This document shows positions 2,345 to 25,613 of a stretch of 29,250 bases of DNA, piece by piece (positions within the stretch are counted from its first letter, which is position 1; each line of letters starts with the position of its first letter). The translations under genes were made by a program, and so were the position numbers. The stretch comes from a virus. Where the stretch lies: IMG/VR virus record IMGVR_UViG_3300018024_000368, positions 1-29,250 of that record; one strand, written 5' to 3'. The notes under the pieces are model-generated. The model did no database searches. It was not told the DNA's origin and was given only the letters and a program-made list of their open reading frames with translations.

Positions 2345-2920
2345 ATGCCCCTCTTCGCGCCACCCGAGCCCATCCCGATAGGGGCCATCTTCATGTTTCC
2401 GGTCTCGGTGTCGCTGCCCGGCTGGCTGCTCTGCAACGGCAGCAGCTTCAGCAGCGCTTCCTATCCCGCCCTGTACGCGCTGCTCGGAGGCACGACGCTC
2501 CCCGATCTGCGGGGCCTGGCCCCCATGGGGGCGGGGGCCAACGGCATCGCGCTGGGGGTGTCGAACGCCAATGGTCAGGCACCGGCCCACACCCACAACG
2601 ACACCGGCCACACCCACGGCTCGGCAGCCCACTCGCACTCTGACAGTGGCCACTCTCACAGCCATGCTCACGGTACGAACCTCGGCGGCAACTTCCTGAC
2701 GGCTGGGTCTTCCAACCCGATTGGGGGTTACGCCTCGGGAAGCAGCAAGTTCGCTTCGGATCCCAGCACGAACACCAACGCCCAAAGCGGCAGTGCCAAC
2801 ATCCAAAGCACCACCCCGGGCAACACAGGGACGGGCTATGCATCCCTCACCGGCTCGGGCAGCGGTACCGCCAACATACCTCCCTTCCTGGGGGTGGCCT
2901 TCTACATCAAGGCGGCGTAG
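2345..2920 (+). CDS. Phage tail-collar domain protein with HxH heptads
   Basis: Residues about 9-63 match the phage tail-collar pattern: PIGAIFMFP, then PGWLLCNG, then YPALYALLG, then LPDLRG. In tailed phages this domain sits in short tail fibres or baseplate tips. It is followed by an exceptional His block at residues 82-109, with HxH pairs at 82/84, 89/91, 96/98 and 103/105 (exactly seven apart), plus 107/109. HxH motifs in the T4 long-fibre tip bind iron along the trimer axis; a similar metal-threaded trimer is inferred here. The C-terminus is Gly/Ser/Asn-rich. The ATG at 2345 has a GGAGGT ribosome site at 2331-2336 inside the end of the upstream gene. Expression with the upstream fibre-like gene is likely. 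Confidence 0.88.
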   Translation: MPLFAPPEPIPIGAIFMFPVSVSLPGWLLCNGSSFSSASYPALYALLGGTTLPDLRGLAPMGAGANGIALGVSNANGQAPAHTHNDTGHTHGSAAHSHSDSGHSHSHAHGTNLGGNFLTAGSSNPIGGYASGSSKFASDPSTNTNAQSGSANIQSTTPGNTGTGYASLTGSGSGTANIPPFLGVAFYIKAA

Positions 2921-2941: not shown

Positions 2942-3187
2942 GTGAGCGTGTTCTCTGAGGAGTTTCGGGCGCGAGCCGCCCGCGAACCCTTCGCGCCGCT
3001 GGGGGACGGCATGTGCGCAGGCTGCGTGGTCGCCGGACAGGTCGCCGCGCTTGAGTACATCGAGGCGGCGATGAACGCGCGCATGGCCCGCGGCGGCGAC
3101 GGCGCCGACCAGGCCGTCGATCCCGTATTCGCTCCCGCCCTGAGCCCGCCCCCGCAGCGCCACGCCCGCCTGAGAGGAGGGCTATGA
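2942..3187 (+). CDS. Small hypothetical protein (81 aa)
   Basis: GTG start with GGAGGT at 2931-2936. The N-terminal half (SEEFRARAAREPFAPLGDGMCAGC) is helical with one CxxC pair at about residues 25-28; the tail is Pro-rich. No family recognised. The stop overlaps the next start (ATGA at 3184-3187), so translation of the two is coupled. Its place directly after the fibre genes suggests a tail-related accessory or chaperone, but that rests on context only. Confidence 0.65.
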   Translation: MSVFSEEFRARAAREPFAPLGDGMCAGCVVAGQVAALEYIEAAMNARMARGGDGADQAVDPVFAPALSPPPQRHARLRGGL

Positions 3188-3489
3188 TGGCTCCCATGCC
3201 GCGACCACCGAAAGCGCCAGCCGGGGTGCCAGCGGGAACCCATCCCCAGCCGAGGCACATCCCGCCGTCCCCTGCCAATGCTCCCGCGAACCTGGAGATT
3301 CCCTCCTGGCTCGCCCAGCAGATCGGCCTGCGCGAGGTGCAGCACATGCGCGACGCCACCGCCCTCGCGGAGCGCGTTGAGCAGCTCCAGATGAAGCTGA
3401 CGATTGCGGAGCATCGGATCGCCTATCTGGAGGGGCAACTTGCTCCCTCTGAGCCTGAACCTGCGTCGGAGGAGGAGGCGGCCGAATGA
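3184..3489 (+). CDS. Pro-rich protein with C-terminal coiled coil (101 aa)
   Basis: Residues 1-40 are Pro/Ala-rich and probably disordered. Residues about 45-88 form an amphipathic helix with heptad spacing (LREVQHMRDATALAERVEQL and onward), followed by an acidic Glu-rich end. The coiled coil suggests oligomerisation. The start overlaps the preceding stop and the stop overlaps the next start at 3486, so this is the middle gene of a coupled trio. No family recognised. Confidence 0.7.
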   Translation: MMAPMPRPPKAPAGVPAGTHPQPRHIPPSPANAPANLEIPSWLAQQIGLREVQHMRDATALAERVEQLQMKLTIAEHRIAYLEGQLAPSEPEPASEEEAAE

Positions 3490-3782
3490 GGTGGGCCTTC
3501 GGCGCCAGCACGAAGCCCGGAGAGCCCATCGACCAGACGCTGCGGAGCACCTGGGCGAACCTCAAGAGAACTCAGGGGCTCACCCCCGGCGAACTCACCG
3601 AGAGCCATGTGGCCCAGGCCATCGTGACCGCCGCCGCCCTGATCGGGACCGGCCTCTTCGGCACGCGCCACTCGGTGGGGGTGGCCGGGACGACGGTCGC
3701 CCCCGGGGAGCCCGTGAGCGCGCCTCCTGAGCTCCACCAGATCATGGTCTCGGTGGCCCAGCTGCCGGATCCGCCCGGCTGA
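3486..3782 (+). CDS. Hypothetical protein (98 aa)
   Basis: Begins MRWAFGASTKPG, followed by a possible helical segment (LRSTWANLKRTQGL) and a moderately hydrophobic stretch AIVTAAALIGTGLFG at about residues 45-59 that could be a membrane-contacting helix. Last gene of the trio coupled by ATGA overlaps; 40 bases then separate it from a leaderless promoter. No family recognised. Confidence 0.65.
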   Translation: MRWAFGASTKPGEPIDQTLRSTWANLKRTQGLTPGELTESHVAQAIVTAAALIGTGLFGTRHSVGVAGTTVAPGEPVSAPPELHQIMVSVAQLPDPPG

Positions 3783-3809
3783 GGGTGGCCGTCCCTGCAC
3801 GCAGCCGGG

Positions 3810-3815
3810 TACGAT
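3810..3815 (+). promoter_or_regulatory. Leaderless -10 box TACGAT
   Basis: TACGAT lies 7 bases before the ATG at 3823, and no ribosome-binding sequence precedes that ATG. A TANNNT box 6-8 bases ahead of the start codon is the usual form of a leaderless promoter in high-GC Gram-positive and related bacteria. The same layout recurs at 6653 on this strand and at 9042, 19637, 20760, 24863 and 4633 on the other. Confidence 0.55.
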
Positions 3816-3822
3816 ACGGTCG

Positions 3823-4026
3823 ATGAAGCCCCGGTGCGAGGCGTGCCAGGCCCCCGACCCCGTCTCCCTGCGCCAGCTCCTGGAGCTCGGCCTGCAGGAG
3901 AAGCCCGACCCCGAGGACTCCGCGTTCAAGGCCCCCGACCTCTGCCCGCGGCACCGCCGCGCCCTGGCCGCCTTCGCCGCCCGGCTGGGCGACGACGGGC
4001 GCGTCCTCGAGGCGAGCGCCGGGTGA
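3823..4026 (+). CDS. Small Cys/His protein (67 aa)
   Basis: Contains CEACQ near the N-terminus and LCPRHRR at about residues 46-52, a CxxC plus CxxH pair able to bind one zinc. The region between is a short acidic helix. It starts at a leaderless promoter and its stop overlaps the GTG of the SCP2-like gene (GTGA at 4023-4026), so the two form a coupled pair. Function unknown; nucleic-acid or protein binding through the zinc site is the simplest guess. Confidence 0.65.
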   Translation: MKPRCEACQAPDPVSLRQLLELGLQEKPDPEDSAFKAPDLCPRHRRALAAFAARLGDDGRVLEASAG

Positions 4027-4358
4027 GCCCGCTCACCCTGGACGAGATCGTGACCCGCTTGGACGCCCGCCTGGCCCGCGCCCCCCGAGCCCAGGCGCAG
4101 CGCCTCGCCTCACTGCGCTTCCGTCTCTCCGGCGAGGGCGGCGGGGATCTCTATGTGGCCGTCGGCAACGGCCTGGCCATGGCCAGCGAGAGGCAGGGGC
4201 CGCTCCCCGTCGACTGCACCATCCGGCTGAGCGTCACCGATGCCGAGGATCTCCTCGAGGGACGCCTGGACGCCGTCAAGGGGTACTTCAGCGGCCGGAT
4301 CAGGATCTCGGGGGACATGGGCCAGGCGATGCGCCTCGGGGATCTGCTCAGCGGCTGA
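4023..4358 (+). CDS. SCP2-like sterol-carrier domain protein (111 aa)
   Basis: The whole protein matches the SCP2 layout: beta strand LRFRLSGEGGGDLYVAV, turn GNGLAMASERQG, then CTIRLSVTDAEDLLEGRLDAVKGYFSGRI and a terminal RISGDMGQAMRLGDLL. In the family the ISGD-type turn and the following helix close a tunnel that holds fatty or lipid-like ligands. Stand-alone SCP2 domains are rare in phage genomes. It is coupled to the small Cys/His gene and ends in a palindromic terminator. Ligand and role cannot be read from the sequence; lipid binding or a membrane-linked function is inferred. Confidence 0.7.
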   Translation: MSPLTLDEIVTRLDARLARAPRAQAQRLASLRFRLSGEGGGDLYVAVGNGLAMASERQGPLPVDCTIRLSVTDAEDLLEGRLDAVKGYFSGRIRISGDMGQAMRLGDLLSG

Positions 4359-4376
4359 CCCCCCCTCTTCAGCCGC
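4351..4376. terminator. Bidirectional palindrome holding both stop codons
   Basis: GCGGCTGA (4351-4358) and TCAGCCGC (4369-4376) form a perfect 8-bp stem around a 10-base C-rich loop. The left arm ends with the TGA of the plus gene and the right arm holds the TGA of the minus gene, so the convergent genes finish symmetrically. A bidirectional terminator is inferred. Confidence 0.7.
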
Positions 4377-4620
4377 AGGTGCACACCCCATCGGCGTTCA
4401 CGCTGAACGCACAGCCGGCGGGGCCGATCCCCGCCCCGCCCGGGCCGCAGCAGATCTCGTTGCAGGAGTAGGTCTCCGTGCCCGTGGGGCCGATGGGGGG
4501 CGTGGGGGGCGCGGGCGGCGGGACCGATCCTCCCCCACCTCCGCTGATGGCCGCTGCGGGCACCAGGACGGCCGCCAGGAGCCCCGTCGCGATGAGGGCG
4601 CCCCATTCCATGCGATCCAT
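4369..4620 (-). CDS. Small secreted or anchored Cys-rich protein (83 aa)
   Basis: Residues about 5-24 are one hydrophobic segment (ALIATGLLAAVLVPAAAI), a signal peptide or anchor. It is followed by a Gly stretch, a Pro linker (VPPPAPPTPPIGPTG) and a domain with Cys at CNEICCG, GPAGC and VCTCG. Six closely spaced cysteines after an export signal suggest a small disulfide-bonded extracellular domain. The ATG at 4620 was chosen over an upstream GTG at 4629 because a TAGCGT box sits exactly 7 bases before it. The gene lies between the G-rich array and the palindromic terminator. No family recognised. Confidence 0.7.
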   Translation of the reverse strand: MDRMEWGALIATGLLAAVLVPAAAISGGGGGSVPPPAPPTPPIGPTGTETYSCNEICCGPGGAGIGPAGCAFSVNADGVCTCG

Positions 4621-4627
4621 GCCCCGC

Positions 4628-4662
4628 ACGCTACCAGCCCATTCTGGGCGGCGGGGAGATCA
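4628..4662 (-). promoter_or_regulatory. GATCTC-type promoter upstream of the Cys-rich gene
   Basis: Reading the minus strand: GTGATCTCCCC (GATCTC at 4661-4656), then 22 bases, TAGCGT (4633-4628), 7 bases, ATG at 4620. The same box and layout occurs before the genes starting at 19623, 20748 and 24850, there with 23 bases between. Confidence 0.6.
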
Positions 4663-4665
4663 CGG

Positions 4666-5234
4666 AGTGGCGTGGTTCGGTCCGGTTCGTCGGTCCGGGG
4701 TGGCATGGCTTGTCGGCGAGGTCAGGATCGTCGCTGTCGGTATGGACTGGGTTGTCGGGGAGGACAGGAAGGGACGGTCACGGTGGCGCGGAGTGGTATG
4801 GATTGGATCGTCGGAGAGGATGGAGCGGGGACGGATCGTCGGAATGGGTAGGTCTGGTATGTCGGCTGGGCTGGGGCGGGGACGGGTTGTCGGGACGGCT
4901 CGGGGTTCGGTGGGGTGGGGTGGGGACTGGATAGTCGGAGCGGAAGGGACAGGCGAGCACCGGATCGTCCGCAGGCAGGGATTGGATCGTCGGCGGGGCC
5001 GGGGTAGGCTCGTCGGGATGCTCGGTGCGGGAGGGTGCGATCTGACACGGCGGATCGGCAAGGGGAGGGTGGGGTCGTCGGGACGGCTGGGCGAGGGACG
5101 GGTTGTCGGTATGGGCTGGGGCGGATTGTCGGTATGGACTGGCTTGTCGGTGCGGGTCGGACGGGTTGGTCGGCAGGGTCCGGGTTGGGCGGACACGGAA
5201 GGGAGTGTCGGAGTGGTCGGGTACGGATAGTCAG
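4666..5234. repeat. 570-bp phased GG-N3 array with 19 GGNNNGTCGG motifs
   Basis: The plus strand is a near-continuous run of five-base steps ending in GG (such as TCCGG, GGTGG, CATGG). It is broken at intervals by an 8-base step NNNGTCGG. Exact GGNNNGTCGG copies start at 4684, 4707, 4749, 4805, 4833, 4856, 4884, 4929, 4984, 5007, 5072, 5100, 5123, 5141 and 5202; one-mismatch copies start at 4725, 4962, 5164 and 5225. The middle N is T in 17 of 19. Thirteen of 18 spacings are 18, 23, 28, 33 or 38, that is 8 plus a multiple of 5. Strand skew is strong: 28 G against 7 C in 4801-4860. The five-base phase argues against coding. The array starts just upstream of a promoter and ends on the stop codon of the RAMP-like gene. 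Iterons, a centromere, G-quadruplex DNA or a repetitive RNA are all possible. Confidence 0.85.
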
Positions 5235-5881
5235 ACCGGCCCGAAGCTGTCGATGGTGAAGGTGCCCGAGCCCTGGCTGCGGTCGCTGCCGATCCCGTTG
5301 AAGCGCATGTACTCCAGCATCTCGCGGAGCTGCTCCTCGGTCCCCACCTTGTTGACGCCATCGTCCAGGACCCGGATGGTGAAGCTGAGCGGCACGCTGT
5401 CGGCGTACTCGAAGCGCTTGATCGAGGTCCGGGGACCCTGCATGGTCATCACGGTGAGCGGCCTATCGTCCACCTGGATCGGCACCGTGATCGGCACCAC
5501 CTTCTCCAGCACGAAGACGCGCTCCGCCACCTTGGACCGGAACGCCTTGACCCGGACGGCGTCCTTCAGGATGTTGGCCGCCTCTTTGAGCGCCCCCTTG
5601 AGGCACCGCCCCTCATAACAAGGGGTGCCATCGGGGAGGCGGTAGAAGACGACCCCGTGAACCTCGGCCACGTCGAGTTGGGCGGCGGTGGCGCTGTGCT
5701 CCTCCCGCGCCGCTGAGGGCGTGAGCGGCACCGAGGCAAGCTCCGCCGGCATCTCGGCGGGCGCCTTCATCCGGGCGGCCCTGGTCTCCAGCCAGATATC
5801 CAGCATCTTCTCCTTGGCGGGCACCCCGGCGACCAGGCGATCGACGGTGATGGCGAGGCGGTAGTCGATCCAGGTGAACAT
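5231..5881 (-). CDS. RAMP-like phage protein (216 aa)
   Basis: Two landmarks of the RAMP fold (Cas5/6/7 relatives) are present: CLKGALKEAANIL at about 93-105, like the SLKG-type segment of Cas7-group proteins, and a C-terminal glycine loop GIGSDRSQGSG at 196-206, followed by a strand TFTIDSF. Between them, MQGPRTSIKRFEYAD (148-161) and the start VAGVPAKEK resemble, from memory, an uncharacterised family common in tailed phages that includes QGPRVTLxRSDY and GLGxxRxxGxGRF words. RNA binding is inferred from the fold only. ATG at 5881 has AAGGAGGG just upstream. It is the last structured gene of the minus operon from 6585, and its stop codon overlaps the final motif of the G-rich array, which would be transcribed by read-through. 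No CRISPR array or other cas gene is visible. Confidence 0.65.
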   Translation of the reverse strand: MFTWIDYRLAITVDRLVAGVPAKEKMLDIWLETRAARMKAPAEMPAELASVPLTPSAAREEHSATAAQLDVAEVHGVVFYRLPDGTPCYEGRCLKGALKEAANILKDAVRVKAFRSKVAERVFVLEKVVPITVPIQVDDRPLTVMTMQGPRTSIKRFEYADSVPLSFTIRVLDDGVNKVGTEEQLREMLEYMRFNGIGSDRSQGSGTFTIDSFGPV

Positions 5882-5917
5882 GGTTCCCTCCTTGAGGGCT
5901 TGAGGATCTGCGAGCCG

Positions 5918-6175
5918 TCAGCGGCCCGATGACTCGCGGGTGATCTCCCTGGTCCGCCGACGCACCCGCCTGATCTGGCGCTCAAAGCGGATGTCCACCA
6001 CGCCCCAGCCCACCAGGGCGGCGAGGTAGGCGAGCCAGAGCCATGCAGTGGCACCCCAGAGGTCGATGAGGCTGGCCACCGCAAGGAAGATCAGGAGCAT
6101 GGCGATGGTGACGCTCACCGCCTGCCTGCGTCGGTGGAGCATCTCCAGCACATCGTCACGGGGTGGGGGTGTCAC
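5918..6175 (-). CDS. Two-span membrane protein (85 aa)
   Basis: Two hydrophobic helices at about residues 20-39 (SVTIAMLLIFLAVASLI) and 43-60 (ATAWLWLAYLAALVGWGVV), then an Arg-rich cytoplasmic tail (RFERQIRRVRRRTREITRE). The GTG at 6175 overlaps the stop of the upstream gene (GTGA), which decides the start. A small helical-hairpin membrane protein could be a holin, but nothing in the neighbourhood supports lysis specifically. Confidence 0.7.
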   Translation of the reverse strand: MTPPPRDDVLEMLHRRRQAVSVTIAMLLIFLAVASLIDLWGATAWLWLAYLAALVGWGVVDIRFERQIRRVRRRTREITRESSGR

Positions 6176-20851: not shown

Positions 20852-20926
20852 TGGTCTGGACGGGAGGGCTCGAACCTCCGACCCCGTGCGCCCGAGGCAC
20901 GTGCGCTACCGCTGCGCCACGCCCAG
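20852..20926 (-). tRNA. tRNA-Pro(CGG) with encoded CCA
   Basis: A full cloverleaf folds on the minus strand. The acceptor stem is CTGGGCG with CGTCCAG plus A and CCA. The D arm is GCGC-AGCGGTA-GCGC, the anticodon arm CGTGC-CTCGGGC-GCACG, and the T arm GGAGG-TTCGAGC-CCTCC. The anticodon CGG (20894-20892) reads proline codon CCG. The bases around D and T arms match typical bacterial proline tRNAs. The gene sits alone between two minus-strand gene blocks. Confidence 0.93.
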
Positions 20927-24857: not shown

Positions 24858-24892
24858 ATGGTACCCCCGAGAGGCGATCTCGCAGGGAGATC
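24858..24892 (-). promoter_or_regulatory. GATCTC-type promoter of the anchored protein gene
   Basis: Minus strand: TGATCTCCC (GATCTC at 24892-24887), 23 bases, TACCAT (24863-24858), 7 bases, ATG at 24850. A second, inverted copy GAGATC (24881-24876) follows five bases after the first. The box overlaps the stop codon of the upstream gene. Confidence 0.65.
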
Positions 24893-25613
24893 AGTCCGCC
24901 GCGCCGCCCAACTCGCGGAGCTGGCGGCGGAAGTGCGCCTCATCGCCGGGGCGGTCGGGATCGCCATGATTCCGGGGCTGGGCCGCGACCTCCTGGTACC
25001 CCGGCGCCCCGAATGGCATCACCGGCTGCTGCTGGAGGACCATCATCGGCGGCTCCGAGATCACCCCCAGGAAGCAGAACTCCTCGCGGCCGGCGCGGAG
25101 ATCCCGGCTGGCCAGCATCGACAGGACCAACCGCTGGGTGGGGGCGATGTAGACGGGGTTGAAGTACCCGACCCGCTGCGACGGGTAGCGGAGCACGCCG
25201 TTCTCGTCGCGCTCGTCGGGGGGGTAGGCGTAGAGGGGGGCCAGCTGGAGCTCAGCGAAGGTCACGGCACCGGTGCCGAGACGCATGGCGTCGATCCGGG
25301 GCCAGCGGCTGAGCGCCTCATAGCCGTACAGGGCGATGCCCGCCCGAGGCTTGGCCTCGGTCCCCCGGTACACATCGTGCGCCCAGGTGTCGGCCCGCAG
25401 CGCCACCGGGTTGCGGAGCCGCGCCACCGCCCGCGCACCTCCGATCCCCCCACCGGAGAACAGATCCGCCGGGCTCACCGCCCGCGACACAAGATCCCCG
25501 CCCCCGTTCGCTGCGTGGGCGAGTTGCTGGGCTACCTGCTGCGCCGTGTTGCGGAGTTGGTACACCTGCTGCGGGGTCACCTCGGCCCGGGGCACGACGA
25601 TGATGGTGGCCAT
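24891..25613 (-). CDS. Hypothetical, possible structural protein (240 aa)
   Basis: Mixed protein with an N-terminal helix (TPQQVYQLRNTAQQVAQQLA), a Gly-rich loop, and a beta-rich middle (GAVTFAELQLAPLYAYPP, then VGYFNPVYIAPTQRLVLSML). The Gln/Pro-rich stretch MMVLQQQPVMPFGAPG precedes a charged tail. The fold could be a minor virion component, judged by composition and by neighbours encoding exported or membrane proteins. ATG overlaps the upstream stop. No family recognised. Confidence 0.6.
   Translation of the reverse strand: MATIIVVPRAEVTPQQVYQLRNTAQQVAQQLAHAANGGGDLVSRAVSPADLFSGGGIGGARAVARLRNPVALRADTWAHDVYRGTEAKPRAGIALYGYEALSRWPRIDAMRLGTGAVTFAELQLAPLYAYPPDERDENGVLRYPSQRVGYFNPVYIAPTQRLVLSMLASRDLRAGREEFCFLGVISEPPMMVLQQQPVMPFGAPGYQEVAAQPRNHGDPDRPGDEAHFRRQLRELGGAAD

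Follow-up and report, generated by a model that had tools for sequence, protein, structure and literature searches.

A conserved gene for a stand-alone SCP2 domain on an apparently circular, virus-like element of about 70 kb

Described SCP2 systems and the viral locus

The SCP2 family (PF02036) is represented among solved structures by rabbit SCP2 (1c44), Aedes SCP2-like-2 (3bdq), and Thermus TT1886 (1wfr). Bacterial stand-alone members, such as those of a Polyangiaceae MAG (L037), Methylocystis (L038), and the Methylosinus plasmid pMSC49a (L035), are single-domain proteins of 107 to 109 amino acids (aa), and methanotroph SCP2 genes have a Rieske-protein gene on one side and an AMP-binding gene on the other (by annotation, and by eye in Methylocystis). 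SCP2-fold domains are also built into enzymes: the protein described here has Eis acetyltransferases and alkylsulfatases as fold matches, and lipid carriage is not the recognized job of the domain within these enzymes. According to one report, SCP2 domains in general bind lipids non-specifically, whereas that of UbiJ has been proposed as a binder of the ubiquinone tail; UbiJ, at 201 aa, also has a C-terminal coiled-coil part (PMC9499169).

Here, we describe an SCP2-domain gene in a 29,250-nucleotide stretch of viral DNA (positions 1 to 29,250 of IMG/VR record IMGVR_UViG_3300018024_000368; hereafter, the window). Its product has the whole domain and the fold in common with the PF02036 examples and is a single-domain protein, with 16 to 22% identity to 1c44, 3bdq, and 1wfr in structure alignments, and in length and architecture it resembles the bacterial stand-alone proteins. 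With UbiJ it shares the SCP2 fold (6h6p, Z 11.6) but not the coiled-coil part. Unlike the PF02036 examples, the gene lies on a virus-like element and begins with a GTG that overlaps a gene for a small Cys/His protein. The features of the window referred to below are as follows:

3486–3782, plus strand: gene directly upstream, 98 aa, before the promoter-like box; no family match
3810–3815, plus strand: TACGAT box, a leaderless-type −10 element, 7 nt before the ATG at 3823
3823–4026, plus strand: Cys/His protein, 67 aa (CEAC ... CPRH), overlapping the SCP2 start by 4 bases (GTGA)
4023–4358, plus strand: SCP2-domain protein, 111 aa, GTG start, complete stand-alone domain (Pfam, PDB, and model)
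4369–4620 (ORF 4369–4629), minus strand: convergent gene; by eye, a hydrophobic N-terminus followed by a Cys-rich tail
20852–20926, minus strand: tRNA-Pro (CGG) gene

The SCP2 domain and its predicted fold

The original prediction for this DNA placed an SCP2-like lipid-binding domain at 4023 to 4358, and the domain is borne out by both a profile search and a predicted structure, with lipid binding itself an expectation from the fold. The ORF is intact with GTG as its start, and its product matches PF02036 with an E value of 3e-12 and 47.2 bits (curated cut-off, 21.3); the alignment covers profile positions 12 to 100 of 101 and, thus, essentially the full SCP2 domain. Among PDB sequences searched with phmmer, the top match (E = 1.2e-07) is 4uei, an SCP2 domain from an insect; SCP2 or SCP2-like domains, all at E ≤ 0.0041, make up 9 of the 13 sequences listed, and the nearest solved structures by sequence are eukaryotic SCP2 domains. 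A five-sequence profile of the protein reached 17 PDB sequences at E ≤ 0.01 (best, 1.6e-23). Besides SCP2 proteins, these are a yeast fatty-acid-binding protein, the archaeal AF_1534, and SCP2-like domains from peroxisomal multifunctional enzymes; some of the latter are listed under the name of the enzyme and were counted as SCP2-like because of their titles in the Foldseek results.

An AlphaFold2 model built from five sequences (mean pLDDT 73.6, pTM 0.68, with pLDDT below 50 at residues 23 to 26 and 50 to 53) orders its elements H-E-E-E-E-H-H-E-H, which is the SCP2 alpha/beta fold. Foldseek matches of this model reach an E value of 4.7e-07, and every one of the 46 PDB chains found at E ≤ 1e-3 belongs to an SCP2 protein or to a protein with an SCP2-like domain. 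These matches include UbiJ, Thermus TT1886, and alkylsulfatases; in YjcS/SdsA-type sulfatases, the match falls on an SCP2-like part. A second structure aligner gave its highest score to Aedes SCP2-like-2 (Z 14.2), with Z 13.2 for rabbit SCP2 (1c44) and Z 12.2 for Aedes SCP2 with a bound C16 fatty acid (1pz4; 104 residues, 3.0 Å). By sequence and model, we regard it as confirmed that the ORF encodes a complete stand-alone SCP2 domain. The protein is without a hydrophobic segment (its 19-residue Kyte-Doolittle mean peaks at 0.54).

The sole NCBIfam match of the SCP2 protein is to UbiT (NF047962; E = 0.031), and at 14.6 bits against a cut-off of 46.9 this identity was rejected: the protein is not an UbiT. 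This weak match, together with the place of the UbiJ SCP2 fold among the structural matches, would suit an auxiliary metabolic gene, i.e., an accessory that resembles UbiJ or UbiT or handles acyl-CoA and diverts the quinone or fatty-acid metabolism of the host. Besides the sub-threshold UbiT score, no quinone or lipid enzyme is represented in the 24 Pfam families obtained from the scanned ORFs of the complete-looking relative G001 (see below); we consider an auxiliary metabolic role quite unlikely.

A coupled partner gene and a leaderless-type box

The coupled Cys/His gene that had been predicted exists: its stop (TGA, 4024 to 4026) overlaps the GTG of the SCP2 gene (4023 to 4025). A comparison of flanking homologues places it beside SCP2 in each of the four contigs spanning the locus, i.e., the window and the relatives G001, G002, and G003, and a viral-contig scan recovered it, again adjoining SCP2, from these three relatives only. 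By eye, the Cys/His protein is zinc-ribbon-like, and it matches nothing in Pfam, PHROG, or NCBIfam; between the window and G003, its gene has a dN of 0.057 and a dS of 0.27. G003 differs by roughly 10 to 20% in its DNA across both genes, yet the box, the overlap, and both reading frames are kept, and the GTGA overlap, like the box, is kept in all four contigs. A weak GAGG ahead of the SCP2 GTG is lost in G003 while the overlap persists, which favors translation of SCP2 coupled through the GTGA overlap.

As for the leaderless promoter that the pair was predicted to own, the box is there and is conserved, whereas leaderless expression is what we infer from it. TACGAT is retained in the window, G001, G002, and G003, despite a different spacer in G003. 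TANNNT-N7-ATG is over-represented in the window, with five sites where 100 shuffled sequences averaged 1.12 and never reached five; at four of the five sites (3196, 3823, 4620, and 24850) the ATG is in frame in an ORF, and the fifth falls within a G-rich array. A sigma-70 scan found no −35/−10 promoter in 3000 to 6000, a null result that says little, since only 0.1 would be expected there by chance.

The genes on either side of the pair match no known family: neither the 98-aa upstream protein (81% aa identity to its G003 counterpart, dN 0.126, dS 0.577) in Pfam, PHROG, or NCBIfam, nor, above the cut-offs of these collections, the product of the convergent gene, whose ATG at 4620 has a TANNNT-N7 box of its own (4618 to 4633).

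Tight coupling to a small Cys/His protein, the two being together in all four contigs, could also point to an SCP2 fold that has been re-used for protein binding with this partner, for example against a host function, without lipid. The GDMG stretch that follows G97 in the window protein reads GSRD in G003, a partial loss of the usual SCP2 motif that also speaks for such a re-use. Against it, most conserved SCP2 positions are retained relative to bacterial SCP2 proteins (G91, G97, and L105 are invariant in both alignments, F89 and A102 are kept in one and L108 in the other), with no large insert or loss, and we rate a lipid-free role as rather improbable.

Distribution and selection within the virus group

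A profile search found SCP2 in four of nine records of the virus group. The SCP2-free records are G004 to G008, whose alignments to G001 stop before the locus: G007 starts at the equivalent of window position 5231, G004 ends about 500 bases before the SCP2 locus, and G005, G006, and G008 cover other parts of the element. Since these five do not reach the locus, the gene is present in every contig that spans it (4/4), and by this comparison it appears to be a conserved, fixed gene of the virus group.

The DNA of the SCP2 gene is identical in the window, G001, and G002 (336/336 bases), as is that of the Cys/His gene (204/204), and the estimate of selection thus comes from one diverged pair. Between the window and G003, the SCP2 gene has a dN of 0.115 and a dS of 0.602 (dN/dS of ~0.19), with its 62 differences split 14/14/34 by codon position, which indicates purifying selection. 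That the ORF might be miscalled, or a functionless passenger, is a reading that would accommodate the 336/336 identity, by itself uninformative on selection; set against the codon-position pattern and dN/dS of this one diverged pair and the significant match to PF02036, we give it almost no credence.

Compared with G001 and G002, the window matches at 202 of 260 positions over 3483 to 3742 and at 79 of the next 80, and it is fully identical from 3823 to 4662. With an identical pair beside a left neighbor at 202/260, the block that holds the pair has been exchanged or inherited apart from that neighbor, which hints at a recombination event immediately to the left of the promoter-like box.

Nature of the element

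The relative G001 bears an exact 127-base repeat at its ends and is, therefore, taken as complete at ~70.5 kb; judged from its sequence, the element appears to be a circular, virus-like element of ~70 kb. G001 encodes a D5-type primase, an AAA protein, a resolvase, several DNA methyltransferases, glycosyltransferase-type proteins, a nucleotide-sugar epimerase, and an RNA ligase. For Pfam and PHROG searches, 71 ORFs (70 distinct) were picked from the 118 ORFs of at least 110 aa that passed a composition filter, five of the 118 being left out of the selection; this set gave 24 Pfam families (the complete list) and 51 PHROG families, of which 25 were listed. A separate Pfam scan covered ten G001 proteins (one a fragment), six of them also in the 71-ORF set.

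Pfam searches of the scanned G001 ORFs returned neither a terminase, portal, or HK97 capsid family nor any tail family. Across records, of which those besides G001 may be fragments, terminase PF03237 was found in 0 of 4, and PF03354 (terminase), PF05065 (HK97 capsid), and PF04860 (portal) were each found in 0 of 5, a search that very divergent versions could escape. A Collar domain at window positions 2381 to 2524 was present in 1 of 5 records, sits in a variable stretch, and is missing from G001, G002, and G003; G007, also without it, does not reach that place. Of the "phage setting" in the original prediction, the virus-like element stands, whereas terminase, portal, and HK97 capsid are missing by profile and the Collar domain is confined to the window, leaving a tailed phage unproven.

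The absence of these families from a complete-looking genome would fit a tailless, membrane-containing virus in which SCP2 supplies or sorts lipids for an internal membrane. Also in keeping with such a virion are strongly hydrophobic segments in 11 of 101 picked G001 ORFs, the scarcity of Walker A patterns (three among the 381 ORFs with a length of 80 aa or more, the two credible ones being the D5 primase and the AAA protein), and two adjacent candidate structural proteins. The first, of 197 aa, is 93% identical in G003 and was modeled as a beta-sandwich with TNF-like jelly-roll matches; the second, next after it, has 270 aa and is 85% identical in G003; and the pair resembles, in order and size, the small and large capsid proteins VP16 and VP17 of the Thermus phage P23-77. 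On the other side, the 197-aa model is poor (pLDDT 46.5), with no Foldseek match at E ≤ 0.001 and a best Z of 6.3, to unrelated beta-sandwiches; neither protein shows a sequence relation to VP16 or VP17; and no FtsK-like packaging ATPase was seen in the Walker A screen or in Pfam searches of the scanned G001 ORFs. We regard a virion-lipid factor as unlikely, and the fuller proposal, that the element represents a lineage, not yet described, of tailless viruses of ~70 kb that contain a membrane and use an SCP2 carrier of their own to load or select its lipids, as very doubtful.

P23-77-like viruses (Matshushitaviridae) are marked by two single-jelly-roll capsid proteins and a packaging ATPase. 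The comparison with them yielded the weak jelly-roll model and, against VP16 and VP17, hhalign probabilities of 0.2 and 0.3 of 100 from shallow profiles. No match was seen between the 197-aa and 270-aa proteins themselves, and neither has one in the PDB (by profile for the 197-aa protein); the 197-aa protein has one weak match among phages (tblastn, E = 0.4), and the structure tables for it list no P23-77-like capsid protein, which excludes nothing. When the 101 G001 ORFs were compared with P23-77 by tblastn, seven short matches appeared at E ≤ 0.05. The one that ranked first, with 31 aa and E = 0.001, comes from the counterpart of the 98-aa gene at 3486 to 3782 and was rejected: it lies inside the coordinates of VP16 but not in its frame and is, thus, taken as chance. 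Elsewhere in the window, a paralogue of the 197-aa protein (24891 to 25613, minus strand, 36% identical) means that the element seems to carry two.

Several other features of these genomes can be recorded. A variable spike module at 76 to 2920 has a repeat-rich, fiber-like ORF followed by the Collar-domain ORF. At 4671 to 5230 lies a G-rich non-coding array, in which 19 GTCGG words (4689 to 5216) are set among NNNGG pentamers and 11 of the 18 spacings between these words are 3 mod 5 (13, 18, 23, 28, 38). G003 has an array of the same style at the same place, with a different sequence and 14 words, and both G007 and G004 have a contig end next to the array or within it. The array could be an iteron- or centromere-like site. 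Adjoining it is a conserved 216-aa protein (5231 to 5881, minus strand; 88% identity in G003, dN/dS of ~0.21) that carries GIGSDRSQGSGTF near its end. A RAMP/CRISPR reading of this gene was rejected: NCBIfam Csm4 reached only E = 0.0036 and 16.7 against a cut-off of 55, the RAMP profile PF03787 was found in 0 of 5 records at E ≤ 1, and PDB searches returned only repeat-protein noise. In G001, an ORF of 634 aa (L005:14342–16243, minus strand) looks by eye to be interrupted by an intein (CLTPDARVL ... LSHNC) and has no Pfam or PHROG match at E ≤ 0.01.

Rarity among viruses and origin

That SCP2 domains are unusual in phages, as had been supposed, agrees with the searches: tblastn of the viral protein against 50,697 phage records returned no match at E ≤ 1, a bacterial SCP2 query found none among phages, and no PHROG family matches the protein. 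Scans of IMG/VR viral contigs with SCP2 queries yielded only three other contigs, all of the same virus group; because these scans depend on short conserved peptides, and one of the three recovered only two of the three known contigs, distant viral SCP2 genes may be missed. One or two viral models nevertheless share the fold. A viral structure library contains a clear SCP2-fold protein of an uncultured Caudovirales phage (A0A6J5RY02; E = 4e-05, TM 0.71), which at 109 aa has a length similar to that of the viral SCP2 protein and the same predicted fold, with 20% identity, and a second, weaker one (E = 1.5e-03). A literature search for SCP2 with phage or virus, whose sources took in few subscription journals, found no relevant paper. 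Going by these searches and models, SCP2 is rare in phages but perhaps not unique.

As for the further suggestion of a host-derived function, there is no sign of a recent host copy: under limited sampling, the nearest full-length cellular relatives found are 25 to 30% identical over the alignment, with 26 to 30% for the proteins of the Polyangiaceae MAG, Methylocystis, and pMSC49a. A single-sequence genome scan for a host or donor of the gene found nothing, a four-sequence profile scan found three cellular relatives with 26 to 31% identity in their best segments, and tblastn against plasmids found three methanotroph plasmids with 35 to 36% identity over about half of the SCP2 length. A near-identity search with window positions 3001 to 28000 had no match in phages or plasmids.

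Proposed role and significance

On balance, we slightly favor a soluble SCP2-fold carrier produced from a coupled two-gene, probably leaderless transcript. This transcript would cover the 67-aa gene and the SCP2 gene, with translation of the latter coupled behind that of its partner, a putative zinc binder. Judged from its fold, the SCP2 protein would enclose a single hydrophobic molecule (an acyl chain, phospholipid, isoprenoid, or quinone precursor) in an inner cavity and shuttle it between membrane and client, and this transfer might serve host membrane lipids or virion lipids during infection. Counting against a carrier are the modest mean pLDDT of the model, the GSRD variant in G003, the occurrence of SCP2-fold domains within enzymes, and the absence of any lipid-synthesis family from the proteins scanned. 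By analogy with what other SCP2 proteins do or are proposed to do (PMC9499169), carriage of a single hydrophobic ligand between membranes or to a partner is the most likely activity; we infer ligand binding, coupling, leaderless expression, and a lipid role in infection alike.

To our knowledge, lipid selection by membrane-containing viruses of prokaryotes is poorly understood, and a conserved viral lipid-carrier gene would offer a single protein with which to test how virion lipids are selected. Even without a membrane virus, and in a group with no recognizable tailed-phage machinery by the profiles used, the gene is a clear example of how a lipid-binding fold of cells has become fixed among viruses.
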